A stretch of 64,000 nucleotides of DNA from Octadecabacter sp. B2R22 (lineage in GTDB: Bacteria > Pseudomonadota > Alphaproteobacteria > Rhodobacterales > Rhodobacteraceae): assembly GCF_018861045.1 (NCBI RefSeq), contig NZ_JAHKQJ010000007.1, forward strand, positions 1-64,000. Direction: 5' to 3'. Positions 6,462-47,919 of this stretch are shown piece by piece. A program made the translations under genes and the position numbers. The notes beneath the pieces are model-generated. The model had not been told where the DNA came from. It was given only the letters and a program-made list of their open reading frames with translations, and did no database searches. How positions within the stretch are numbered: the stretch's first letter is position 1; each line of letters opens with the position of its first letter.

Positions 6462-6995
6462 ATGACCAAGACCTTCACACTTGCCACAGCCGCCTTGTTT
6501 CTGTCAGCCGCAGTCGCCCAAGCCGATACAGTTGAGATCAACCTCATCGATATGCTCGACAATACGCAAGACGGATATTGCCTCGACATTTCGGGTGGTC
6601 AGGGGGCGCAAGCCGACCCAAGCAACGGACTTCAGGGTCATACCTGCTACAGCCCGTCGGGCGAGATCTTCGTGGACCAAGGTTTTGACACCGAACGGTT
6701 CGCCGACGGCCAACTTTACATGCCGGAATTTGATGTTTGCGCCGAAGTTTCATCAACCGAAGCTGGCGCGACCGTCGGCTTGGCCGATTGCAGTGATGAC
6801 GTGAAACAAGACTTCGTCTTCTCTGGCGAAGGCGAGATTGTTCCCGCATCGGCGCCCGAAATGTGCCTGACGCTTGCCGAAGACACTCGGACGGGCCGCA
6901 GCGACACCAACCAGATCAAAGAACTCGCACTAGAGGCCTGCAGTGAAGACAGCGCGGCTAGCCAGACGTGGAGCCATCGTACTGCAGGCGAGTAA
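6462..6995 (+). CDS. Exported ricin-type lectin-like protein
   Basis: A 177-residue protein with a signal peptide (cleavage near AQA-DT, residue 21). Six cysteines come in two similar sets (GYCLDIS, HTCYS, FDVCAEV, LADCSDD, EMCLTL, LEACSED), and the chain ends in SQTW, a QxW element typical of ricin-B beta-trefoil repeats. This suggests a carbohydrate- or glycan-binding periplasmic or surface protein; the ligand is unknown. An AAAGGAAA sequence precedes the ATG. It is 37 bases after the preceding exported protein and probably shares its transcript; a hairpin follows at 7020-7051. Confidence 0.68.
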   Translation: MTKTFTLATAALFLSAAVAQADTVEINLIDMLDNTQDGYCLDISGGQGAQADPSNGLQGHTCYSPSGEIFVDQGFDTERFADGQLYMPEFDVCAEVSSTEAGATVGLADCSDDVKQDFVFSGEGEIVPASAPEMCLTLAEDTRTGRSDTNQIKELALEACSEDSAASQTWSHRTAGE

Positions 6996-7051: not shown

Positions 7052-7395
7052 CCTTGGCGCTGCCGCAGGGAAAATTTGGATTGTCCCTCAAGCCGACCTT
7101 AGGCTGTCAAAATTCCACTCGAACTGTTGGTACGTGCAGCTAAAGTCCGCTTCGAGCCCAATATGTCATCTTTCTGTGCCGCAGCGAATGTCGGGTTTAA
7201 TAAGCACTAACGAATTGACCTTTGGGATTCTGGCCCTCCCAGTATTTAGAAATTGTATGCAAAATCTGTTCGGCCCACAGTCTGATGACTTGCTTTTCCA
7301 GAACGTTTTCGGCTGTTGAATTTTTTGCAGCCCACCCATTCGAGTGAATTCAAGCGGGAAGAGCGGCCCTATGAAACTAGGATAGCTGTCCGTGT
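7052..7395. other. Intergenic stretch with no recognisable gene
   Basis: About 340 bases between the hairpin and the LysR stop codon. It is somewhat more A+T-rich than its surroundings. Short open frames here lack a ribosome-binding site and any family resemblance. I see no repeat, tRNA or mobile-element end. Confidence 0.5.
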
Positions 7396-8340
7396 CTATT
7401 CCTCAGTTGGCGTTGCCAAGTGCAAAGCCGGAGATTCTTTGGCAACGTATTCGCGCATGTGTGCCGTGAATGCAGCGAGCAATGGGCTTTCAAGTCGATT
7501 GCTTGATGATACCATTCCGACAGACGTGGATGAAAGCGTGAGTTGCACTGGGAGCTCGGCCAACCTGCTGTTCTCCCCTCGGTGACGCAGTGCGTACCTC
7601 GGCAGTACGGTCAAAAAGTCGGTGTGGCGGAGCATCTCTAATATGGCTCCGGCGGATCCACTTTGAAACGCAATTTTCAGATTTCTGACACCAAGATACG
7701 TCAGCGCCGCGGCCATGTCTGACTGTAACTGGCTTTCGTCTGCGTGGCTGACCCAAGTGGCTTTTTCAAGGTCGTCCGCAGTGATCGTGCTTTGTTTAAG
7801 CAACCAATGTTCAGCGCGCCCTGCAATAACATGAGCGTCTTGGAACAACGGCGCGACGGTTAAGTCATCAATGGATGCTGTCAGCAAACGCAAGGGGCAA
7901 ATAATGACGTCCAACTGGTTCAAGAGAATCCGACGCTCAAGTTGCGGGAAATACTCCGAGACAAGCTTCACCTCAATTTCGGGTCGATGTTGCAAGAAAC
8001 TTGAAATGGCTTCGCCGACCAACCGCTGACACAAGAACGGCGGTGCGCCGATCTTGAGCTCTCCGCTCATGCCCTCCAAAACAATCTGTATATCTTCCAG
8101 CGCGCGGCGACGCGTGGCGTCTATAGTGCGCCCATGATTGGCCAGTTTTTTACACACCTCGGTTGGCATCAACGGGCGGCGGCTGCGCTCAAATAGCTGG
8201 GTGCCGATTCTGATTTCGAGGTCCGTGATCATACGGCTGAGCGCGGACTGCGATGTGCCTAGGCGTTTGGCAGCCTCATTGAACGTGCCGAACTCAAGGA
8301 TGGCCGCAAGCTGCTCAAGATGTCTGGGGTCGATGTTCAT
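7396..8340 (-). CDS. LysR-family transcriptional regulator
   Basis: A 314-residue protein with an N-terminal winged helix-turn-helix (1-60; FGTFNEAAKRLGTSQSALSRMI) and a LysR-type effector-binding domain (about 90-300). It is divergent from the sulfatase/TRAP/hydroxylase operon, the usual arrangement for a LysR activator of a catabolic operon; the effector would then be the imported sulfate ester or its product. Regulation of that operon is inferred from position only. Confidence 0.9.
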   Translation of the reverse strand: MNIDPRHLEQLAAILEFGTFNEAAKRLGTSQSALSRMITDLEIRIGTQLFERSRRPLMPTEVCKKLANHGRTIDATRRRALEDIQIVLEGMSGELKIGAPPFLCQRLVGEAISSFLQHRPEIEVKLVSEYFPQLERRILLNQLDVIICPLRLLTASIDDLTVAPLFQDAHVIAGRAEHWLLKQSTITADDLEKATWVSHADESQLQSDMAAALTYLGVRNLKIAFQSGSAGAILEMLRHTDFLTVLPRYALRHRGENSRLAELPVQLTLSSTSVGMVSSSNRLESPLLAAFTAHMREYVAKESPALHLATPTEE

Positions 8341-8449
8341 ATCAAAATCGCAAGTTAAGTTGTTGAATCATGACTAGACAGATATGTTTTGGGCGTCAAA
8401 GCTAAACGCCAGCAGTTTTAAACGCATTTGTTCGGGGAGGAGCACGGTC
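8341..8449. promoter_or_regulatory. LysR-sulfatase divergent control region with inverted repeat
   Basis: About 110 bases between the divergent genes. An inverted repeat, GGCGT at 8392-8396 and ACGCC at 8406-8410, fits the spacing of a LysR site. A strong ribosome-binding sequence, GGGGAGGAG, lies at 8434-8442 and serves the GTG at 8450, not the sulfatase ATG. Confidence 0.4.
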
Positions 8450-8527
8450 GTGAAACTTAATGGCGACACTTGGGGTGGTCCGCGCGCCGACGCGCGAAAC
8501 GTGTCGCGGTTGTGTGCTTATGTCTAA
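8450..8527 (+). CDS. Putative 25-residue leader peptide overlapping the sulfatase start
   Basis: A GTG at 8450 stands seven bases after a near-perfect ribosome-binding site (GGGGAGGAG, 8434-8442) and opens a 25-codon frame that ends in TAA at 8525-8527. The sulfatase ATG at 8520 lies inside its last codons (ATGTCTAA overlap) and has no ribosome-binding site of its own. The simplest reading is that translation of this short frame delivers ribosomes to the sulfatase by coupling. The peptide starts VKLNGDTWGGPR and shows no signal sequence or known domain. It may be only a coupling device; whether the peptide has a function is unknown. Confidence 0.5.
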   Translation: MKLNGDTWGGPRADARNVSRLCAYV

Positions 8528-10151
8528 GAGCAGCAAGAACGTTCTTTTCATTATGGCTGACCAACTGCGTTGGGATTACCTGAGCTGTTACGGCGCAGAC
8601 CACATCGACACGCCCAATCTGGATTGGTTGGCCTCTCAGGGGGTCAGGTTCAACAAGACCTATGTGCAATCCCCGATCTGCGGACCCAGCCGCATGAGCT
8701 TTTACACAGGGCGATATGTCCGCTCGCACGGGTCGACCTGGAATGGATTTCCGTTGCGGATTGGTGAGCCGACTTTGGGCGATCACCTGCGCGAGATCGG
8801 GGCGAAATGTTCACTTGTGGGCAAGACGCATATGACGCCGGATCGCGAAGGTATGAAACGATTGGGGATTTCACCCGAAAGCACCATCGGCGCCCTCGTG
8901 TCTGAATGCGGATTTGACGTGAAGGTGCGTGACGACGGCACCAATAATTCTGCCTATCCGGGTCGCCATGGACAGGATTACGATCAGTACCTGCGCGATC
9001 ACGGTATGGACGGCGAAAATCCTTGGGAGGAATGGGCCAACACCGCGATTGGACCTGATGGGAAAATGCGGTCTGGCTGGCTTTTGGACAACGCGCCACT
9101 GGCCGCCCGCGTCCCGAAAGAGCATTCTGAAACCGCGTGGCTGACGACACGGGGCATCGAATATATTGAAGAACAGGGCGATCAACCTTGGTTATGCCAC
9201 CTGAGTTACATCAAACCACACTGGCCCTATTTGGCCCCCGCGCCTTACAACGATATGTACACGGCACAAGACCTTCCGCCCGTCAATCGCAGCGCTAAAG
9301 AACGTGACGCCACGCATCCCTTGATGCAAGCGTGGATGAACATGCGGGTCTGCCAAACCATGTCCAAAGACGAGGTGCGCGATTTGGTGGCACCCTGTTA
9401 CATGGGCCTAATAAAAGAGCTCGACGATCAAATGGGCCGCCTTTTTGCTTACCTCCGCGAAAGTGGTCGCATGGAGGACACGATGATCGTGTTCTGCTCT
9501 GATCATGGCGACAACATGGGCGATCATTGGCTGGGTGAGAAAGACCTGTTCTACGATTGCTCAGCGCGCATTCCGCTTTTGGTTTATGATCCGCGCGCTG
9601 AGGCAGACGCGACGCGTGGAACAAGCACGGACGCCTTGGTCGAAGCAATTGATCTTGCCCCGACCTTCCTTGAGTTCATGGGCGGGCAAGCCAAGCCGCA
9701 CATCATGGAAGGCCGCTCTCTTACGCCACTGCTGCACGGTCAAGACACAGACTGGCGCAGCTTTGCCGTCTCCGAATATGATTACTCCACGCGTGACGCG
9801 AGGCAGGACGTTGGCGTCGATCAGTCCGATGCGCGCCTGACGATGATCTTTGATGGACGTTGGAAATACACATACGTCGAGAAAATGGACCCAATGCTTT
9901 TCGATCTGCAAAATGATCCGGGCGAGCTGAGAGATCTGGGCACTGATCCCGACTTTGCGGGCGAGGTCGCGCGGCTTCAGGCGCTTCACTTTGAATGGAC
10001 GCGCCGCCACCACAACCGGATTACGCGCACAGCTGAGGCCGTCAACAAGATGGCCGCAAACAAGGAACCCCCCGGTATTCTCATCGGGTTTCGGGACAAG
10101 GAAGAACTTGAGGGCGAAGGGAGGACTTTGCCCAACCACACGATTGGATAA
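8520..10151 (+). CDS. Type I sulfatase (formylglycine-dependent), cytoplasmic
   Basis: A 543-residue member of the alkaline phosphatase superfamily. It has the sulfatase signature C-x-P-S-R with Cys54 (SPICGPSR), which an FGE-type enzyme would convert to formylglycine, metal-binding Asp14 (IMADQ), and a C-terminal SDHGD(N)MGDH...K element. There is no signal peptide, so the substrate must be brought into the cytoplasm. Close relatives include choline/aryl sulfatases and phosphonate monoester hydrolases, and the motifs alone do not decide between them. It is first in an operon with a TAXI-TRAP importer and an aromatic hydroxylase. The start ATG lacks a ribosome-binding site and overlaps the short leader frame; an upstream ATG at 8460 is possible but less good. 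Confidence 0.88.
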   Translation: MSKSSKNVLFIMADQLRWDYLSCYGADHIDTPNLDWLASQGVRFNKTYVQSPICGPSRMSFYTGRYVRSHGSTWNGFPLRIGEPTLGDHLREIGAKCSLVGKTHMTPDREGMKRLGISPESTIGALVSECGFDVKVRDDGTNNSAYPGRHGQDYDQYLRDHGMDGENPWEEWANTAIGPDGKMRSGWLLDNAPLAARVPKEHSETAWLTTRGIEYIEEQGDQPWLCHLSYIKPHWPYLAPAPYNDMYTAQDLPPVNRSAKERDATHPLMQAWMNMRVCQTMSKDEVRDLVAPCYMGLIKELDDQMGRLFAYLRESGRMEDTMIVFCSDHGDNMGDHWLGEKDLFYDCSARIPLLVYDPRAEADATRGTSTDALVEAIDLAPTFLEFMGGQAKPHIMEGRSLTPLLHGQDTDWRSFAVSEYDYSTRDARQDVGVDQSDARLTMIFDGRWKYTYVEKMDPMLFDLQNDPGELRDLGTDPDFAGEVARLQALHFEWTRRHHNRITRTAEAVNKMAANKEPPGILIGFRDKEELEGEGRTLPNHTIG

Positions 10152-10174
10152 ACAGACTGTTTGGGAGGAACATT

Positions 10175-11221
10175 ATGTCTAAGAAAACCACGATAACGGG
10201 GGCCTTACTGGCCTTGGGATTAACGACGGGGGCGCATGCGCAGGCAAACTTGACGGGAGAGACAACGCCTGCGACGCAAACCGCAGCGCAGGCAATGTTA
10301 GGGGTCGCCGAACTTGCGGCAGCTTCGGGCCTTGCCAATATTCAGGTTGCGACGGGTCAAACACTGACCAACTCAATTCAGAACGTCGCAGAAGGTAAAA
10401 CGGACATCGCAGCGGCACCATTTGTTTTGCCGTTCCTGCTGTCCAGAGGGGCTGGACCCTACGCCAGCGTTGGGCCAGAGGCTGGTGCCGAATTGGCGTC
10501 CAACCTTTCGGTTCTTTATACTTATCAGCTTTCGGTGTTCGCACTGTCTTCCTATGAAAGTAGCAATTTTGGCGGGTGGGATTCGATCGAAGGCGCGACT
10601 ATCTACAATGGCCCACCACGTGGCGCGGCCTTGAATAAGGCACGGGCGATGGCCCGCCTTGTTTCAGGATTGGACGACGGCGAAGGCTACACCGGTATTC
10701 AGGTCAACTGGGGCCAGATGGTGTCCACGATCACCGAAGGGTCAGCAGATGCGCATATTCTGCCCGTAAACTTTCCGGATGCACGTCATGCGCAAGCTGC
10801 ATCTTCAGGTGGAATGGTTGTTTATTCCTTCCCAAAGGAAATCTTTGAGGGGGAAGCAGGAACAAACTTTAGCAATGCGCCGGGCAACGCTGCCGTGGTT
10901 GAGCCAATCGTCGATGATCTTGTCGGACCCAACATTCGCATCGTGTCCGAGGACGGAATGTTTCGCGGCTATGCCGACATTGGTGGGGACGTTGTGAACG
11001 TATCGATGGACGAAGAACTGGCCTATCAACTCACCAAGACCTTCCTTGACGGGTTGGAACAGATCACCGCAAGAACCCCTGCGATGGCCAGTGGCTGGTT
11101 GGGCGAAACGGACATCGCCATGACCGGAATGTGTGGTCCAAATCCCCTGAAATACCATCCAGGTGCCGTTCGTGCGTGGGAAGAAGCAGGCTATGTGTTG
11201 CCCGAATGCGCGCTGCCATAA
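10175..11221 (+). CDS. TAXI-family TRAP transporter solute-binding protein
   Basis: A 348-residue periplasmic protein with a signal peptide (cleavage near AHA-QAN, residue 22). The mature protein has the two-lobed TAXI layout, with an early segment about finding and sampling (ATGQTLTNSIQNVAEGKTDIAAAPF) typical of the family. It would capture the substrate and pass it to the fused permease encoded next. Ribosome-binding site GGGAGGA precedes the ATG. It lies 23 bases after the sulfatase. TAXI proteins have few known ligands in bacteria; here the neighbours suggest an organic sulfate ester. Confidence 0.88.
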   Translation: MSKKTTITGALLALGLTTGAHAQANLTGETTPATQTAAQAMLGVAELAAASGLANIQVATGQTLTNSIQNVAEGKTDIAAAPFVLPFLLSRGAGPYASVGPEAGAELASNLSVLYTYQLSVFALSSYESSNFGGWDSIEGATIYNGPPRGAALNKARAMARLVSGLDDGEGYTGIQVNWGQMVSTITEGSADAHILPVNFPDARHAQAASSGGMVVYSFPKEIFEGEAGTNFSNAPGNAAVVEPIVDDLVGPNIRIVSEDGMFRGYADIGGDVVNVSMDEELAYQLTKTFLDGLEQITARTPAMASGWLGETDIAMTGMCGPNPLKYHPGAVRAWEEAGYVLPECALP

Positions 11222-11234
11222 GGGTCTGAAAAAT

Positions 11235-11258
11235 GAGGGCGGCAATTTTGCCGCTCTC
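11235..11258 (+). promoter_or_regulatory. Intercistronic hairpin between binding protein and permease
   Basis: GAGGGCGGCAA (11235-11245) and TTGCCGCTCTC (11248-11258) form an 11-pair stem with one G-T pair and a two-base loop. There is no T-run. Such hairpins after transporter binding-protein genes commonly protect the upstream mRNA or partly terminate, giving more binding protein than permease. Confidence 0.65.
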
Positions 11259-11284
11259 TCCAAATTCTTGGCGCAGGCGGCAAT

Positions 11285-13639
11285 ATGAACCAGACTTCAA
11301 GTCCTGATACCCATCTGGAGGCAAAGCCGCGCGGGGTTCTGTTTTGGCTATCCTTGTTTATCGTTGTCGCAGGATTGACGAATGCGATCCCCGGGGTTCC
11401 CGGACTGGACGACGGATTGCGCAATCTGACCGGGCTCGATTGGCTCAAGATCCGCAAATTCCCGACAGAGTGGTTTTACCCGTTTGCCTTTGCATGCATG
11501 ATGCTGTGCGTCGTGTTGAAGCATTCAGCATGGAAATCATGGGAAAACGAACCCACCGGTAAACGCCGCCTTGGGTTGCTGATGGATATCGCGATGGTCG
11601 CCGCGGCCTTCACAGTCTCCGTCACTTACGTCGTTGAAATTGAATCGATCTGTTTGATCGATCAGATCACCGGCGAGAGGGCACGCCTAACCGCAGAGGC
11701 GCTGAGGATCGAAACCGAGATCGCCACGACCATGGGCCTTCCTCCACCCTCAACCGTCGAAGACCCCAGTTGTGTCGGTAATACGGGTGGCTGGTTGGTT
11801 CTGATTGTTGGCCTGACGGTTCTGATTTTTCTGGCCTACAATATCCGCGTTTGGGGTCTGGCCCTTGTTCTGGTGGCCCTTGCCGTGGCGCTTTACACCA
11901 TCGTCACGGTCCTTGTTTGGTATTTTCATGGCCCTGAAGACATCAATAAATACCTGATGACCAAACTTGCTGGAGAGCCTCGCCTTCTGTCAGACGGGCG
12001 ACCGCGTGTGCACGACATTCTGGTCAATAATGCATCCGGCCTGATGGGCCGGTTCATGGATATAATGCTCAATACGATATTCCCTTATCTCGTACTGGGA
12101 TCGCTGTTCGGTGCCTCTGCCGGAGGGCAGTCGCTTATCAAACTCGCGTTTCGTTGGACGCGGAGGTTACGCGGCGGGCCAGCCCATGCCGCGATCGTTT
12201 CCTCGGCGATGTTCGGGACCATTTCTGGCGGGCCAATCGTCAACGTTCTGTCGACGGGTGTTCTGACGATCCCGATGATGGTCAAGCGTGGTTATTCTAA
12301 AGTGTTTGCCGGAGGCGTTGAGGCGGCCGCGTCATCAGGTGGATCAATCATGCCACCTATCATGGGGATTGCGGCATTTGTATTGGCGTCTCTCACGGTC
12401 GTTCCTTACTCGCAGGTCATCATTGCTGCGATTATTCCAGCCGTTGCTTACTTCTTTTGCTTGTTCCTGTCGGTCGTCTTTCAAGCCCGCAAACAGAACA
12501 TCAAAGCGATCGGTGAGTTGACCGATGATATGCGCATGTCGCCGCAGGATATATTGAACCTGACCATGATATTCGGGCCAATTCTTTTGATCTTGTCCTT
12601 GCTGCTGGCGACGAAAGATACGGTGGGCTGCGGGGTACTGGGTGGTATTTTGGGTGCGGAGCGGAGCTTTGTGGATGGCACCTGCGTGGTCCAAAGCCTG
12701 TCATGGTTTCAACAGACCGTCCAAAATGCTGCCGGAGACGCTGGGAGTGCGGGGTGGTGGGCGGTCATCCTTCTGATCGCGCTGTTGTTTTTGGATCCGA
12801 ACGTGCGCCAAAAGCCCGCCAAGATTGTCGATGCATTGTCAGATGCCGGCATTCTGGTGTCGTCGCTTTATCTCATGTTTCTGGCCGTTTCCGTTATCGA
12901 CTTCTGCCTACAATTCACGGGCCTGCCGAACTTTATTTCTCTGGACGTCTTGGGGTGGCTCAATTCGCTGAACCTTGGACAAGACGGGTCCGTCGGTTTC
13001 CAGCTGCTCGCGCTGTTTGTCACGATGTTCATCGCGATCTTGCTGGGCATGGGCATGCCCGCTGTTCCTGCCTACATCAACGTCGCGTTGTTGATGGGCC
13101 CGGTTCTGGCGGGGCTCGGGATTGCGACCTTTACTGCGCATATGTTCATCTTCTATTTCGCAGTCGCCAGCGCGATAACCCCGCCCATAGCCTTGGCCGC
13201 ATTTGCCGCCGCGTCCATCACTGGCGCAGGTCCGATGGCCACTGGATTTTCTGCTGTAAAGTCGGGCATCGTCATGTTCGTGATCCCGTTCATTTTTGCG
13301 CTTTATCCAGAAATTCTACTGATCGAAGCAGCCGTTATCGATCCGGTCAAAAGCGCCAGTGGGGCGCAAATCTACTTGGCCGGGTATGACGGTGAGACGA
13401 ACTGGACAGCGCTCGCCCTCATCCTTGGCAAGACCGCCCTCGCGCTCTATTTACTGGCAAGCTCGCTTGCCGGATTTGACAAGCGCAAGCTGGCGAGTTG
13501 GGAAATCTTTATGCGCTTGGGTCTGGCCGTGACAATCATGTCGTTCAATACAACTCTTCAGGTTGCGGGTATCACGGGCGCCGTGATCATGATTGTTTGG
13601 CATGCAACGTCGAAGAGGCAAGGGCTGATACAAGCGTGA
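11285..13639 (+). CDS. TRAP transporter fused permease (DctQM type, TAXI family)
   Basis: A 784-residue inner-membrane protein joining the small (4-helix) and large (12-helix) TRAP subunits. The DctM part carries GTISGGPIVNVLSTG and the glycine/serine-rich SSGGSIMPPIMG segment, and later GMGMPAVPAYI and ASAITPPIALAAFAAA, all family hallmarks. It forms the Na+-coupled import channel for the cargo captured by the TAXI protein upstream. Its stop overlaps the GTG start of the flavin hydroxylase. Confidence 0.9.
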   Translation: MNQTSSPDTHLEAKPRGVLFWLSLFIVVAGLTNAIPGVPGLDDGLRNLTGLDWLKIRKFPTEWFYPFAFACMMLCVVLKHSAWKSWENEPTGKRRLGLLMDIAMVAAAFTVSVTYVVEIESICLIDQITGERARLTAEALRIETEIATTMGLPPPSTVEDPSCVGNTGGWLVLIVGLTVLIFLAYNIRVWGLALVLVALAVALYTIVTVLVWYFHGPEDINKYLMTKLAGEPRLLSDGRPRVHDILVNNASGLMGRFMDIMLNTIFPYLVLGSLFGASAGGQSLIKLAFRWTRRLRGGPAHAAIVSSAMFGTISGGPIVNVLSTGVLTIPMMVKRGYSKVFAGGVEAAASSGGSIMPPIMGIAAFVLASLTVVPYSQVIIAAIIPAVAYFFCLFLSVVFQARKQNIKAIGELTDDMRMSPQDILNLTMIFGPILLILSLLLATKDTVGCGVLGGILGAERSFVDGTCVVQSLSWFQQTVQNAAGDAGSAGWWAVILLIALLFLDPNVRQKPAKIVDALSDAGILVSSLYLMFLAVSVIDFCLQFTGLPNFISLDVLGWLNSLNLGQDGSVGFQLLALFVTMFIAILLGMGMPAVPAYINVALLMGPVLAGLGIATFTAHMFIFYFAVASAITPPIALAAFAAASITGAGPMATGFSAVKSGIVMFVIPFIFALYPEILLIEAAVIDPVKSASGAQIYLAGYDGETNWTALALILGKTALALYLLASSLAGFDKRKLASWEIFMRLGLAVTIMSFNTTLQVAGITGAVIMIVWHATSKRQGLIQA

Positions 13640-15204
13640 CGTCCGAGATAGATACAGATGTGGCGATCGTCGGGGCCGGACCGGTTGGCTTGCTGTTGGC
13701 GATATTGTTAGGCCGCGCCGGTAAGTCCGTCACCATAGCCGAAAAATGGCCCCACATCTATGAGCGCCCCCGCGCCGTAACGATGGATGCGGAAGTAGCA
13801 CGTATCCTTGCCACTTTGGGCATTGATTGCGACACCGATCCCGCCTTCGAGAACCACAAAGAGCTGTATTACTGGAAGAACGCGGACCTACAGGACTTGC
13901 AAATTGTCGACTGGGAAAGCCTCGCGCCGTGTGGCTGGCATGTCACCTATTGGTTCAACCAGCCCGAACTCGAAGCACGCCTGATCAAGATGGTTGAGAC
14001 ATTGCCCACCGTGACGCTTTTGCGTGGGTGGACGGCTGTGGATCTTTCGCAGGACAACGACCGTGTGCAGGTTATCACTCAAGATACAGCCACCAATCAA
14101 AGCCGCAAAACCCTGACTGCGCAGTTTGTTGTTGGGGCGGACGGGGCCAATAGCTTTGTGCGTGACAGTCTTGGGTTACCGGTGATCGACAAAGGCTATT
14201 TTTTCGATTGGCTCATCCTCGATATGATCCCGCATGCGGGGTATAAAACCTCGCCTGCACAGTGGCAGTTGTGCGATCCCAAACGCCCCACAACCATTGT
14301 GCCCGGCGGCCCTGGCCGTCGGCGTTGGGAATTCATGGTGTTGCCGTCCGAGAACACGGACGACATGGCCAAGCCAGAAACTGCGTGGCGCCTGTTGGAG
14401 CCATGGGGGCTGACACCTGAAACTGCGGAACTGGAACGCAGTGCTGTCTACCGTTTCCAAGCCCAATACGCAGATCAATGGCTGGCGGGGCGCTGCATGA
14501 TAGCAGGGGACGCCGCACACCTGATGCCCCCCTTTGCGGGCGAGGGGATGTGTGCAGGCTTGCGCGATGCTGTGGCACTGGGATGGCGGTTATCTGGTAT
14601 TCTTGACGGAAGATTCTCCGCGAAGGTGCTAGACAGCTATGAAAGCGAACGCATCGCCCACGCCAAACATTACATTCAGTTTAGCCAAGACCTTGGCGAG
14701 ATTATCTGCATCGCCGATCCCGACAAAGCTGCAGCACGCGATGCGCGGATGATGGAGAATCTCGCGGCACGCGACCACAAGCCGATCACAGGGGATTTGG
14801 TAAAGCTCGGCTCAGGAGTGTGGTGCGACGATAGCCCCGGCGCAGGAGAGCTTTCCCCCCAAGGTATCGTGCGGTTTGACGGTAGACAGGACCGGTTTGA
14901 TCAGGCTGTCGGGCAAGGCTGGATGGTGCTGGCGTTGGAGTGTGCAACTGAAGGCGTGTTGAACCACGTGCATCAGATTGCACTCGCCAAGCTTGATGGC
15001 CAGTTACTGTCGGTTGGGCCGGATGGCGTTGGATACGATGTCATCACAAAAGACGCCACATATGCCGATTGGGCGCGAGAGATCGATGCGCGATACATGA
15101 TCGTGCGCCCCGACTTTTATGTTGCAGCGACCGCTAGAACCACCACACAATTGGCAAATTGCTTAGACACGATCATCGATAAGCTCGGCATTAGGACGAT
15201 TTGA
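13636..15204 (+). CDS. FAD-dependent aromatic hydroxylase (MhpA/PheA-like)
   Basis: A 522-residue class A flavoprotein monooxygenase. It has the Rossmann motif GAGPVG (near residue 15), the DG motif in GADGANSFVR, and the GDAAH motif (GDAAHLMPP) that binds the FAD ribityl chain. The C-terminal thioredoxin-like part seen in phenol-type hydroxylases is present (about 400-522). Such enzymes put a hydroxyl group onto a phenolic ring using NAD(P)H and O2. The start is taken as GTG 13636, which shares GTGA with the TRAP permease stop. Placed after a sulfatase and importer, it probably acts on the phenol released by desulfation; no ring-cleavage gene is seen nearby. Confidence 0.85.
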   Translation: MTSEIDTDVAIVGAGPVGLLLAILLGRAGKSVTIAEKWPHIYERPRAVTMDAEVARILATLGIDCDTDPAFENHKELYYWKNADLQDLQIVDWESLAPCGWHVTYWFNQPELEARLIKMVETLPTVTLLRGWTAVDLSQDNDRVQVITQDTATNQSRKTLTAQFVVGADGANSFVRDSLGLPVIDKGYFFDWLILDMIPHAGYKTSPAQWQLCDPKRPTTIVPGGPGRRRWEFMVLPSENTDDMAKPETAWRLLEPWGLTPETAELERSAVYRFQAQYADQWLAGRCMIAGDAAHLMPPFAGEGMCAGLRDAVALGWRLSGILDGRFSAKVLDSYESERIAHAKHYIQFSQDLGEIICIADPDKAAARDARMMENLAARDHKPITGDLVKLGSGVWCDDSPGAGELSPQGIVRFDGRQDRFDQAVGQGWMVLALECATEGVLNHVHQIALAKLDGQLLSVGPDGVGYDVITKDATYADWAREIDARYMIVRPDFYVAATARTTTQLANCLDTIIDKLGIRTI

Positions 15205-15941
15205 CTATTCAGATAGTGGTTGATTGGCAATTCAGTCACGAGAGCACACGACAAGAGCTAAAAGCAGCCATTGGTGAAGCTGCAGCGAAGGTCGGGAAAG
15301 TCCGCATTGCAGTCATCGGCTCCATCAAAATGCTGCGCGATCGATCAATGTCCGCTTCGGGGAAGCTGCACCGCAGCATCTGTTCAACTCGCGAATGTCC
15401 GCTCTGGGCCGAGAATGCCCAAAATTTTGCTTCCGTATTGGCGTACCGCCAATATAGGCCTTGGTTGTTGATGCCAGAAGACTCTAAAATGAGGGCCGGT
15501 TGCAACGCTTACGCCGAGCCGAGACAGCAGTCCGATGGGGCGTATGACAGTGGGATTGGTCACAGCGCGCCACGCTAGACCACCCAAAACCACGCCGGCC
15601 AGAGCCATTTTAGGTAAAAGCGCGACCCCTATCCCCTGTGACACGAGGTCAAGCGCCGTTGTTGTTCGACCAACTTCGTAACTCCATTGCACAGGGGTAA
15701 CTTACTTGTGCCCGCGGTAGCAACGCTCCGGACATGACCATGGGTCAGGGCTGTCACGGGCACTCTGGGCTCGGGATACTTAAAAAGACGGTGCAGACGT
15801 CCAACAACGAGAACTCGCGACTCGCGCGCAGAACGCACTAAACCTCATGGAACGCAGTAAGACCGAAACATGAATGTTTCAACGCTTGTTTCAAGAACTG
15901 AAATTTAGGAGGTGTGGCGTGGCTCAAGTTATTGAAAACGT
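15205..15941. other. Decayed non-coding stretch between the catabolic operon and tRNA-Cys
   Basis: About 740 bases with no intact gene. Apart from the LysR remnant described separately, short frames on both strands have no family resemblance or ribosome-binding site. The contrast with the tightly packed rest of the window suggests gene loss or an old insertion boundary. No terminal inverted repeats or integrase fragments were recognised. Confidence 0.55.
15501..15692 (-). pseudogene. Remnant of a LysR-family regulator (C-terminal part of effector domain)
   Basis: An open stretch of about 64 codons on the minus strand reads like the end of a LysR effector domain: TTTALDLVSQGIGVALLPKMAL, a short linker, then a strand-like TVIRPIGLLSRLG. 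The normal SPAAQ-type ending is missing because the frame diverges after that point, and no DNA-binding half is found upstream. The piece is therefore a fragment of a broken gene. Its exact limits are uncertain. Confidence 0.5.
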
Positions 15942-16015
15942 TGGAGGCGAGTACCGGAATCGAACCGGTGTACACGGATTTGCAATCCGCTGCGTAACCA
16001 CTCCGCCAACTCGCC
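15942..16015 (-). tRNA. tRNA-Cys (GCA), CCA end encoded
   Basis: On the minus strand the acceptor GGCGAGT (16009-16015) pairs with ACTCGCC (15946-15952), followed by discriminator T and encoded CCA. The anticodon loop reads TTGCAAA, giving GCA for cysteine, and the T arm has GGTTCGATTCC. Total 74 bases with CCA. The 3' end faces the decayed region and catabolic locus at lower coordinates. Confidence 0.95.
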
Positions 16016-46347: not shown

Positions 46348-47919
46348 ATGACGACCTATATTTACGACACCAATCAAACGACGAATCTCGACCTAGGGTC
46401 CGGCGACGAATACTATCTACTTCCAGGTGTTTCGCACTACAGCACTATTGGCAGTGTTATTGATTTAACTTCGGGGTCTGCAGGTGTTGATATCTCGGTG
46501 TTGGGTGCGATCGTTGGTACATCTCGGGCTTTGGGTTTAGACGATGCGACTGACGTGCACGTCCTGATTGGCACAACAGGGAGCGTTACAGCTGTCGAAA
46601 GCCAATTCGGCATCTATTCCAATGGCGACGACGTGCATCTGACCAATCTCGGAACGATCAGTTCAGGACAGCTGTATTTCGCAGGTGAGAACGCCGAAAT
46701 TATCAATACGGGCACGATCACAGGATTATTTACTGATATATCAACCATTGCCGCGATAAACGGAAGCGGTGATAATTTTTCTTTCATGAATTCCGGTACC
46801 GTGACCTCCGTGTCGAGCGATATTTTCCAGATCTCTAATAATGCTACGATTTCGAACAGCGGTTCGCTTATTGGGGTGAGTAACGGGTTTGATCTTAATA
46901 CATCGGTGGGGGAGAGCGTTACGATTTCAAACAGTGGACTGATCCAAACCAATGCAGATGCAATCACGTCTTCAAGTGGCAACTTGACCTTGAAAAATTC
47001 AGGGACAGTGGATGGTGAAATCACGTCGTCAGGTACAAGTGCTGAAGATACGATCGTGAACACTGGGACCATTTTGGGGGATATTTCGCTGAGTGGCGGT
47101 GCGGATGTGGTTCGTAACTTTGGCGCGATTGATGGTGATATTTTCCTTGGCGATGATGCTGACATTTACAGATCTATTGTAAATGGCGTTGTGGCTGGCG
47201 CGATTGAAGGGGGTGACGGTAATGACATTATTAGCGGCGGTATTGGTGAAGACGAACTCATTGGCGATGACGGCGATGACGTGCTGCGTGGTGGCGAACG
47301 CAACGATGCCCTGTTCGGCGGTTCGGGCGACGATGTACTAGACGGTGGCTCGGGTGATGATGTCATGCGTGGCCACGCAGACAACGACAGAATTTTCGGC
47401 AAGGACGGAGAGGACGTATTGTTTGGCGGCACTGGCGACGACATCCTAGATGGCGGTCTTGGCGAAGATGTCCTGTATGGTGAAGCCCAAAACGACAAGC
47501 TTTATGGCAAGGACGGAAATGACATCCTGTTTGGTGGCGACGGTGACGACATCTTGCGCGGGGATGCGGGCGATGATGCGCTTTATGGGGGGCTGGGAAC
47601 GGACCAGTTTTATGGCGGTCTTGGGAACGACACGTTTATTTTCAGCGATGTTTTGGAAAGCCCGGACAGTGCTGCACGCGATATCATTCGGGATTTCACC
47701 CAAGGCGAGGATCTTATCAACGTATCGCAGCTGAGCAGCCCAGCGTTTGATTTCATCGGGTCGTCAGGGTTCTCTGGTTCGGCACCCGAAATCCGCGCGG
47801 TGGTTGGGGCCACTGGCGACACGAACTTGTATCTTGATACAGATGGCAACGGGGCGGCGGACATGCGTATCCTTGTGTCCGGCGTCGATGGTCTGACCTC
47901 GGATGATTTCATCCTTTAA
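46348..47919 (+). CDS. RTX calcium-binding protein with N-terminal NSGT-repeat region
   Basis: A 523-residue protein with no signal peptide. Residues about 75-280 contain at least eight irregular repeats built on N(S/T)GT(I/V) (NLGTISS, NTGTITG, NSGTVTS, NSGSLIG, NSGTVDG, NTGTILG, NFGAIDG), a pattern seen in beta-helical surface proteins. Residues about 285-430 hold glycine/aspartate nonapeptide repeats (GGxGxDxLx) that bind calcium. The tail (about 430-523) resembles the serralysin-type C-terminal module that carries the type I secretion signal. No ABC/HlyD genes adjoin it; the TolC at 16889 could take part. Probably a surface or matrix protein. Its stop overlaps that of the MFS gene. Confidence 0.85.
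   Translation: MTTYIYDTNQTTNLDLGSGDEYYLLPGVSHYSTIGSVIDLTSGSAGVDISVLGAIVGTSRALGLDDATDVHVLIGTTGSVTAVESQFGIYSNGDDVHLTNLGTISSGQLYFAGENAEIINTGTITGLFTDISTIAAINGSGDNFSFMNSGTVTSVSSDIFQISNNATISNSGSLIGVSNGFDLNTSVGESVTISNSGLIQTNADAITSSSGNLTLKNSGTVDGEITSSGTSAEDTIVNTGTILGDISLSGGADVVRNFGAIDGDIFLGDDADIYRSIVNGVVAGAIEGGDGNDIISGGIGEDELIGDDGDDVLRGGERNDALFGGSGDDVLDGGSGDDVMRGHADNDRIFGKDGEDVLFGGTGDDILDGGLGEDVLYGEAQNDKLYGKDGNDILFGGDGDDILRGDAGDDALYGGLGTDQFYGGLGNDTFIFSDVLESPDSAARDIIRDFTQGEDLINVSQLSSPAFDFIGSSGFSGSAPEIRAVVGATGDTNLYLDTDGNGAADMRILVSGVDGLTSDDFIL

Follow-up and report, generated by a model that had tools for sequence, protein, structure and literature searches.

The 64,000-nucleotide stretch of Octadecabacter sp. 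B2R22 analysed here (contig NZ_JAHKQJ010000007.1, positions 1 to 64,000; hereafter the window) carries an operon that combines a sulfatase, a TAXI-type TRAP importer and an aromatic hydroxylase. The best explanation of these genes as a whole, to which we assign a probability of about 0.6, is that the operon imports an aryl sulfate intact, desulfates it inside the cell and hydroxylates the released phenol. The periplasmic TAXI protein would bind a sulfated phenol and pass it to a fused TRAP permease, and the intact aryl sulfate would enter the cell through this TAXI-TRAP system. A cytoplasmic sulfatase resembling the arylsulfatase SpAS1, its Cys54 matured to formylglycine, would split the ester into sulfate and free phenol. 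A flavin hydroxylase would act on the free phenol, most likely yielding a product of the hydroxyquinol (1,2,4-trihydroxybenzene) type, which would undergo intradiol ring cleavage.

The four genes lie on the forward strand in the order sulfatase (8520-10151), TAXI solute-binding protein (10175-11221), permease (11285-13639) and hydroxylase (13636-15204, GTG start). Gaps of 23 and 63 bases separate the first three, while the permease stop and the hydroxylase GTG share 4 bases (GTGA), a spacing that suggests that the four genes are cotranscribed. A LysR-type gene (7396-8340, reverse strand; PF00126 and PF03466) diverges from the operon and is likely its regulator; LysR genes that cluster with it were found in 7 related loci. 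A re-check of the open reading frames (ORFs) found the first-pass annotation correct in its gene order, coordinates, gaps, GTGA overlap, divergent LysR gene and Cys54 motif. The complete five-gene set also occurs in a close relative, L032, at 85-95% protein identity.

A TAXI clade paired with leaderless sulfatases

The sulfatase is a 543-aa protein of the PF00884 family, and its closest solved structures were 4upi (648 bits, over residues 5-537) and 4upl (631 bits), against at most 248 bits for solved phosphonate hydrolases. 4upi is SpAS1, an arylsulfatase of Ruegeria (Silicibacter) pomeroyi from the arylsulfatase (AS) branch of the AS/phosphonate monoester hydrolase (PMH) group (PMC5488252; articles given by PMC number are cited here for those parts of their text that were covered). 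AS and PMH enzymes are told apart at two positions, which are K101/H103 in SpAS1 and Y105/T107 in RlPMH, and SpAS1 favours sulfate over phosphate monoester ~10^4-fold (PMC5488252). The window sulfatase has K102 and H104 at SpAS1 positions 101 and 103, its GKTHM segment aligning with 4upi, and its C54 lies in CGPSR, an instance of the maturation motif CxPxR. The phosphonate monoester hydrolase reading was rejected on the scores and on the lack of the residues diagnostic of such enzymes, Y at the first position and T or D at the second. The choline sulfatase reading was likewise rejected on the TIGR03417 score (213.9, cut-off 433.45), and choline-O-sulfate is not hydrolysed by SpAS1 or SpAS2 (PMC5870055). 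The best NCBIfam name was sub-threshold, PehA phosphoric/sulfuric ester hydrolase (342.6 bits, cut-off 900). By its sequence, the window enzyme is of the SpAS1-like arylsulfatase type and not of the phosphonate-hydrolase type; the first-pass annotation had called it a sulfatase and named a phosphonate or phosphate esterase as the case that would overturn it, and here the arylsulfatase K/H pair and the scores favour the sulfatase.

The sulfatase is predicted to be cytoplasmic. Its ORF could start as early as 8460. With the ATG at 8520 as the start, residue 8 already opens the first strand (VLFIMADQ), which leaves no room for a leader. The stretch added by the earlier start failed our hydrophobicity rule, and hence no leader was found from either start. 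The rule was applied to sulfatases with a recognisable first-strand motif and to TAXI frames in which an anchor motif was present. The window and the fetched loci together have 78 sulfatase ORFs no more than 4.5 kb away from a TAXI gene. Of these, 65 could be assessed and a single one was flagged (L062, unconvincingly, from sequence upstream of its likely start), while the same rule flagged 63 of the 72 anchored TAXI frames. The earlier description of the sulfatase as leaderless holds for the window and, one doubtful flag apart, for its assessable TAXI-coupled relatives.

We scanned the TAXI protein against 84,980 species genomes and kept the best 80 of 277 relatives, which with the window gave 81 loci. 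The TAXI frame was present in all 81 and a fused permease in 77, and in 58 a sulfatase lay within 4.5 kb. Flanks of 4.5 kb or more on either side were available for 53 of the fetched loci, and 44 of these had a sulfatase within 4.5 kb of the TAXI gene. As a control, 31 canonical TAXI genes scoring over the TIGR02122 cut-off in 21 genomes were compared by eye with PF00884 positions, and none had a sulfatase within 4.5 kb (one had it at 5.1 kb), a control weakened by some short contigs. The difference was pronounced by Fisher's test (p=2.9e-15, or 1.0e-13 with the 5.1-kb case counted), although the 53 loci are not independent events, many being metagenome-assembled and mutually related. On a tree of the loci, pairings fell on several well-supported branches, part of the backbone being weakly supported.

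The paired sulfatases are diverse. The 78 ORFs comprised 29 of SpAS-like type, 35 of a second type (30 with CMPNR) and a remainder of 14 (10 with CSPCR), so that, judged by the nucleophile motifs CGPSR, CMPNR and CSPCR, this TAXI clade is paired with no fewer than three types of sulfatase. Both gene orders occur, with the sulfatase upstream or downstream of TAXI-permease. Annotated plasmids carry permease-TAXI-sulfatase in M382, LysR-sulfatase-TAXI-permease in Pseudosulfitobacter and TAXI-permease-SulP-sulfatase in Paracoccus marcusii. On a Leisingera plasmid, a metallo-beta-lactamase-fold gene precedes TAXI-permease and no sulfatase is annotated in the stretch. Sulfatase relatives also adjoin or neighbour TTT importers. 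Together, these results show that members of this TAXI clade are genuinely and widely paired with leaderless sulfatases, and intact import followed by internal desulfation is therefore the best explanation of the pairing. The neighbourhood search proposed by the first-pass annotation thus returned the five-gene set in L032 and a strong, recurrent sulfatase-TAXI link. Separately, a SulP anion transporter gene was observed between TAXI-permease and sulfatase in L114 (L114:13479-15242); it perhaps exports released sulfate.

The importer itself consists of a 348-aa TAXI protein, with a signal peptide by eye, and a 784-aa permease that joins small and large subunits in one chain (TIGR02123 331.1 bits, cut-off 320.65). 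The TAXI protein scored over the PF16868 cut-off and below the curated cut-off of TIGR02122 (29.2, cut-off 84.35), and is ~17% identical to VcGluP. Its AlphaFold2 model had a pLDDT of 90, and of the seven best Foldseek chains five were TAXI proteins named as such in the match listing or in PMC11574862 and two were VCA0144. As modelled, the window binding protein has the TAXI fold. TAXI transporters are widespread and few of their ligands are known (PMC11574862, PMC12344293); the window protein is predicted to be a sulfate-ester binder. Arg149, in an NGPPRGA loop, was considered as a sulfate-binding residue and dropped as not general. It was invariant in alignment A1 (48/48), and a canonical TAXI protein of the Octadecabacter genome has GPAGGGT there, but the equivalent position is Q, G and S in the sulfatase-linked loci L131, L113 and L114, respectively.

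Aromatic genes around the importer and in the genome

The last gene of the operon encodes an FAD-dependent aromatic hydroxylase that scored over the cut-off of NF004829, an MhpA-like subfamily (573.7 bits, cut-off 390). An earlier MhpA/PheA-like label was borne out for MhpA at the subfamily level only, while the neighbours of its relatives indicate a hydroxyquinol route instead. Relatives of the hydroxylase matched in 71 plasmid records, and in the four that were opened (54-57% identity) a maleylacetate reductase gene lay near the relative in all four and a ring-cleavage dioxygenase gene in three. The hydroxylase is rare, being found at E 1e-80 in 4 of 148 genomes, its own included.

Recurrent neighbours of the TAXI genes were typed by searching representatives against protein families and solved structures. 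One cluster is hydroxyquinol 1,2-dioxygenase, typed on L043, which scored 208-249 bits to hydroxyquinol-type chains and at most 126 to (chloro)catechol-type chains. Within 11 kb of the TAXI gene, it was present in 8 of the 81 loci, 6 of which also had a sulfatase. Another cluster is a LigM/DesA-like O-demethylase (in L131, 399 bits to LigM, below NCBIfam cut-offs), found within the same distance in 5 loci, as was a metallo-beta-lactamase-fold gene (5 loci, L107 weak). L131, which lies outside the 81, has dioxygenase, LysR, metallo-beta-lactamase, demethylase, TAXI, permease and sulfatase genes in line, and in L034 a different FAD ring hydroxylase directly follows the permease. AtsA has ~30% similarity to the ElaC family (PMC5066984), and as a lead from this analogy the metallo-beta-lactamase genes adjoining the LigM-like demethylase are candidate S4-type arylsulfatases. 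A gene for the dimethylsulfoniopropionate lyase DddP was also observed directly before TAXI in L046 (L046:8161-9783, 883 bits), and L048 and L051 likewise have members of this gene cluster near TAXI.

The Octadecabacter genome has two sulfatases: that of the operon and a second one, encoded by a 509-aa frame, which is recurrent within the genus. Its one intradiol dioxygenase is, as judged from sequence comparison, of hydroxyquinol type (195-221 bits to hydroxyquinol chains, at most 121 to (chloro)catechol chains). The dioxygenase gene lies in a cassette (L126:8843-16367) with genes for a GntR regulator, a DctPQM importer, OsmC, nitroreductase-like and YciI proteins. The gene beside the dioxygenase is isopropylmalate/homocitrate-synthase-like, and a malonyl-CoA decarboxylase gene follows the cassette. 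Much of the cassette adjoins TAXI-permease-sulfatase in L044, L053, L058 and L061 (all Granulosicoccaceae) and in L097 (Dinoroseobacter). A maleylacetate reductase gene was expected in the cassette and was not found.

The ester handled by the window operon is likely aromatic. The dioxygenase and phenol hydroxylase genes in some loci, together with the maleylacetate reductase genes near hydroxylase relatives, suggest a hydroxyquinol-type phenol. A product of the hydroxyquinol type is reasonable to expect as well, though on weaker grounds.

Maturation, counter-evidence and rival explanations

No FGE (formylglycine-generating enzyme) or anaerobic maturase was recognisable in the genome, which is 99.28% complete. 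An FGE probe at E 1e-20 had no match there and matched in 19 of the 101 genomes searched, and TIGR03942 had no match in the genome either. The sole PF03781 protein (G000:C7:1368420-1369250; L001:1351-2343) carries what by eye is a signal peptide. It does not have the CxxxxC cysteine pair, which is catalytic in FGE, and is probably not an FGE. FGE-family proteins with this pair were found in L071, L093, L103 and L117, and the genes of the first three were observed near CMPNR-type TAXI-permease-sulfatase clusters. At E 1e-100, 16 of 19 same-genus genomes, the present one included, have this sulfatase family, of which 3 had an FGE match and 13 had none, several of the 16 being incomplete. Since 13 of these 16 sulfatase-bearing genomes are in the same position, maturation by another route is likelier than refutation. 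In E. coli, Cys-type sulfatases are modified by an unknown enzyme, often incompletely (PMC5870055), and work on SpAS1 variants made use of the FGE of M. tuberculosis (PMC5488252). The first-pass annotation had held that a genome with no FGE gene would refute its proposal; the search formally gave that outcome, which is not decisive. Its sequence of binding, import, desulfation and hydroxylation is otherwise partly supported by the arylsulfatase type, the missing leader, the TAXI link and the aromatic genes near some loci.

Besides the missing maturase, several observations weigh against the intact import and hydroxylation of an aryl sulfate. Nine of the 53 full-flank loci have no sulfatase within 4.5 kb of TAXI (L072 has one at 5.2 kb), and the five demethylase loci showed no formylglycine-type sulfatase in the sequence available, four of them lying near contig ends and L100 not. 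The flavin hydroxylase of the operon has a counterpart within 11 kb of TAXI in few loci, being present in only 6 of the 81 (the window included; L093 weak). Elsewhere the same TAXI clade is accompanied by GMC oxidoreductase, aldehyde dehydrogenase, short-chain dehydrogenase/reductase (SDR) and amidohydrolase genes, and because GMC oxidoreductase, aldehyde dehydrogenase or amidohydrolase genes are present in some loci, not all ligands of the clade need be aromatic. In the genome itself, the dioxygenase cassette is on another contig (G000 contig C6) than the operon and has a TRAP importer of its own, and a one-probe search found no maleylacetate reductase where the same probe found one in G057. 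The lower hydroxyquinol pathway is incomplete by this probe test, or unlike the textbook route.

The ester might merely be a source of sulfate. Pseudomonads import sulfate esters for sulfur by ABC systems, which speaks for sulfur scavenging, but seawater is rich in sulfate, and the hydroxylase in the operon and the ring-cleavage genes in some relatives indicate carbon use, making this explanation improbable. A sulfate ester could also be imported intact and desulfated inside without being aromatic (an alkyl, sugar or steroid ester), the hydroxylase acting elsewhere. The oxidoreductase, dehydrogenase, SDR and amidohydrolase genes and the rarity of the flavin hydroxylase just described fit such a substrate. 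It is nevertheless unlikely, if worth keeping in view, given that the nearest characterised relative is an arylsulfatase, that SpAS1 and SpAS2 leave choline-O-sulfate intact (PMC5870055), and that genes for a dioxygenase of the hydroxyquinol type and for two different FAD hydroxylases lie near sulfatase-bearing relatives.

A hydrolase acting on phosphonate or phosphate (di)esters, with the importer carrying an organophosphate or an unrelated acid, is suggested by the sub-threshold PehA name and by the promiscuity of the AS/PMH superfamily (PMC5488252). The K102/H104 pair and the 648 bits to SpAS1, against at most 248 for phosphonate hydrolases, make this very doubtful. Finally, the operon could be a decaying acquisition whose sulfatase is inactive because it is not matured. 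The lack of a recognisable FGE or anaerobic maturase would agree with this, as would the restricted DNA alignment with L032 described below. We give decay little credence, as none of the open frames is broken and the catalytic motif is conserved, 13 of the 16 same-genus sulfatase genomes have no FGE match (own genome included, several incomplete) and an unknown enzyme carries out this cysteine conversion in E. coli (PMC5870055).

We consider a broader form of the intact-import proposal to be evenly balanced. According to it, the entire TAXI-TRAP clade, in Alpha- and Gammaproteobacteria, is dedicated to importing sulfate esters intact and is paired in its lineages with cytoplasmic sulfatases that belong to three or more formylglycine types, perhaps with a metallo-beta-lactamase-fold arylsulfatase instead in the demethylase loci, and maturation in most of the same-genus genomes that have this sulfatase family proceeds by a route other than known FGEs and anaerobic maturases. 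If true, a TAXI clade tied to sulfatases would add a new ligand class to a poorly understood importer family. Algae and plants release phenolics as sulfates, and the proposal would help to explain how marine bacteria use phenolic sulfates, the sulfate being removed only inside the cell. The finding also marks hosts whose formylglycine-type sulfatase has no recognisable maturase.

When the first 26 kb of the window were aligned with 21 kb of L032, only 7154-15289 aligned, at 87% identity. The borders of this block lie near those of the operon, with a tRNA-Cys gene at 15942-16015, and the block is possibly an exchanged cassette. Between operon and tRNA gene, a short frame on the reverse strand (15384-15692) weakly matched the end of a LysR substrate domain (27.6 bits, cut-off 28) and may be the remnant of a regulator gene; its match to a regulator-like gene downstream in L032 was poor (38% over 21 residues, E 0.034). 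The window further encodes a ricin-type lectin-domain protein (6462-6995) and an RTX-repeat calcium-binding protein (46348-47919).

Comparison with known systems

SpAS1 is the nearest solved relative of the window sulfatase and has the Cys motif and K/H pair in common with it. The covered parts of PMC5488252 treat SpAS1 as an isolated enzyme and mention no importer, whereas the window sulfatase lies beside a TAXI importer. On the R. pomeroyi megaplasmid, a 53.5% relative adjoins a TTT importer instead. Known ligands of TAXI-TRAP systems include glutamate (VcGluP and the T. thermophilus protein) and orthophthalate (an Azoarcus system). These systems have the fold in common with the window protein, and orthophthalate gives an aromatic ligand precedent (PMC11574862); the window protein differs in scoring below the TIGR02122 cut-off, and a sulfate ester is not mentioned as a ligand in the covered parts of PMC11574862 and PMC12344293. 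Within the open PMC literature, as distinct from subscription papers, no title or abstract opening seen linked TAXI with sulfatase.

The hydroxyquinol pathway comprises a phenol hydroxylase, hydroxyquinol 1,2-dioxygenase and maleylacetate reductase, and for relatives of the hydroxylase in the window there is a linkage to the genes for the latter two. In the window's own genome the dioxygenase is present but unlinked and maleylacetate reductase was not found. One search of the open PMC literature gave no paper naming resorcinol hydroxylase, hydroxyquinol and maleylacetate reductase together. In choline-O-sulfate use, the cytoplasmic formylglycine-type sulfatase BetC acts after import of the intact ester. 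The window system differs from BetC in that its sulfatase scores far below the choline-sulfatase cut-off and its importer is of the TAXI-TRAP type, and resembles it in what would be the same arrangement, a cytoplasmic sulfatase acting after import.

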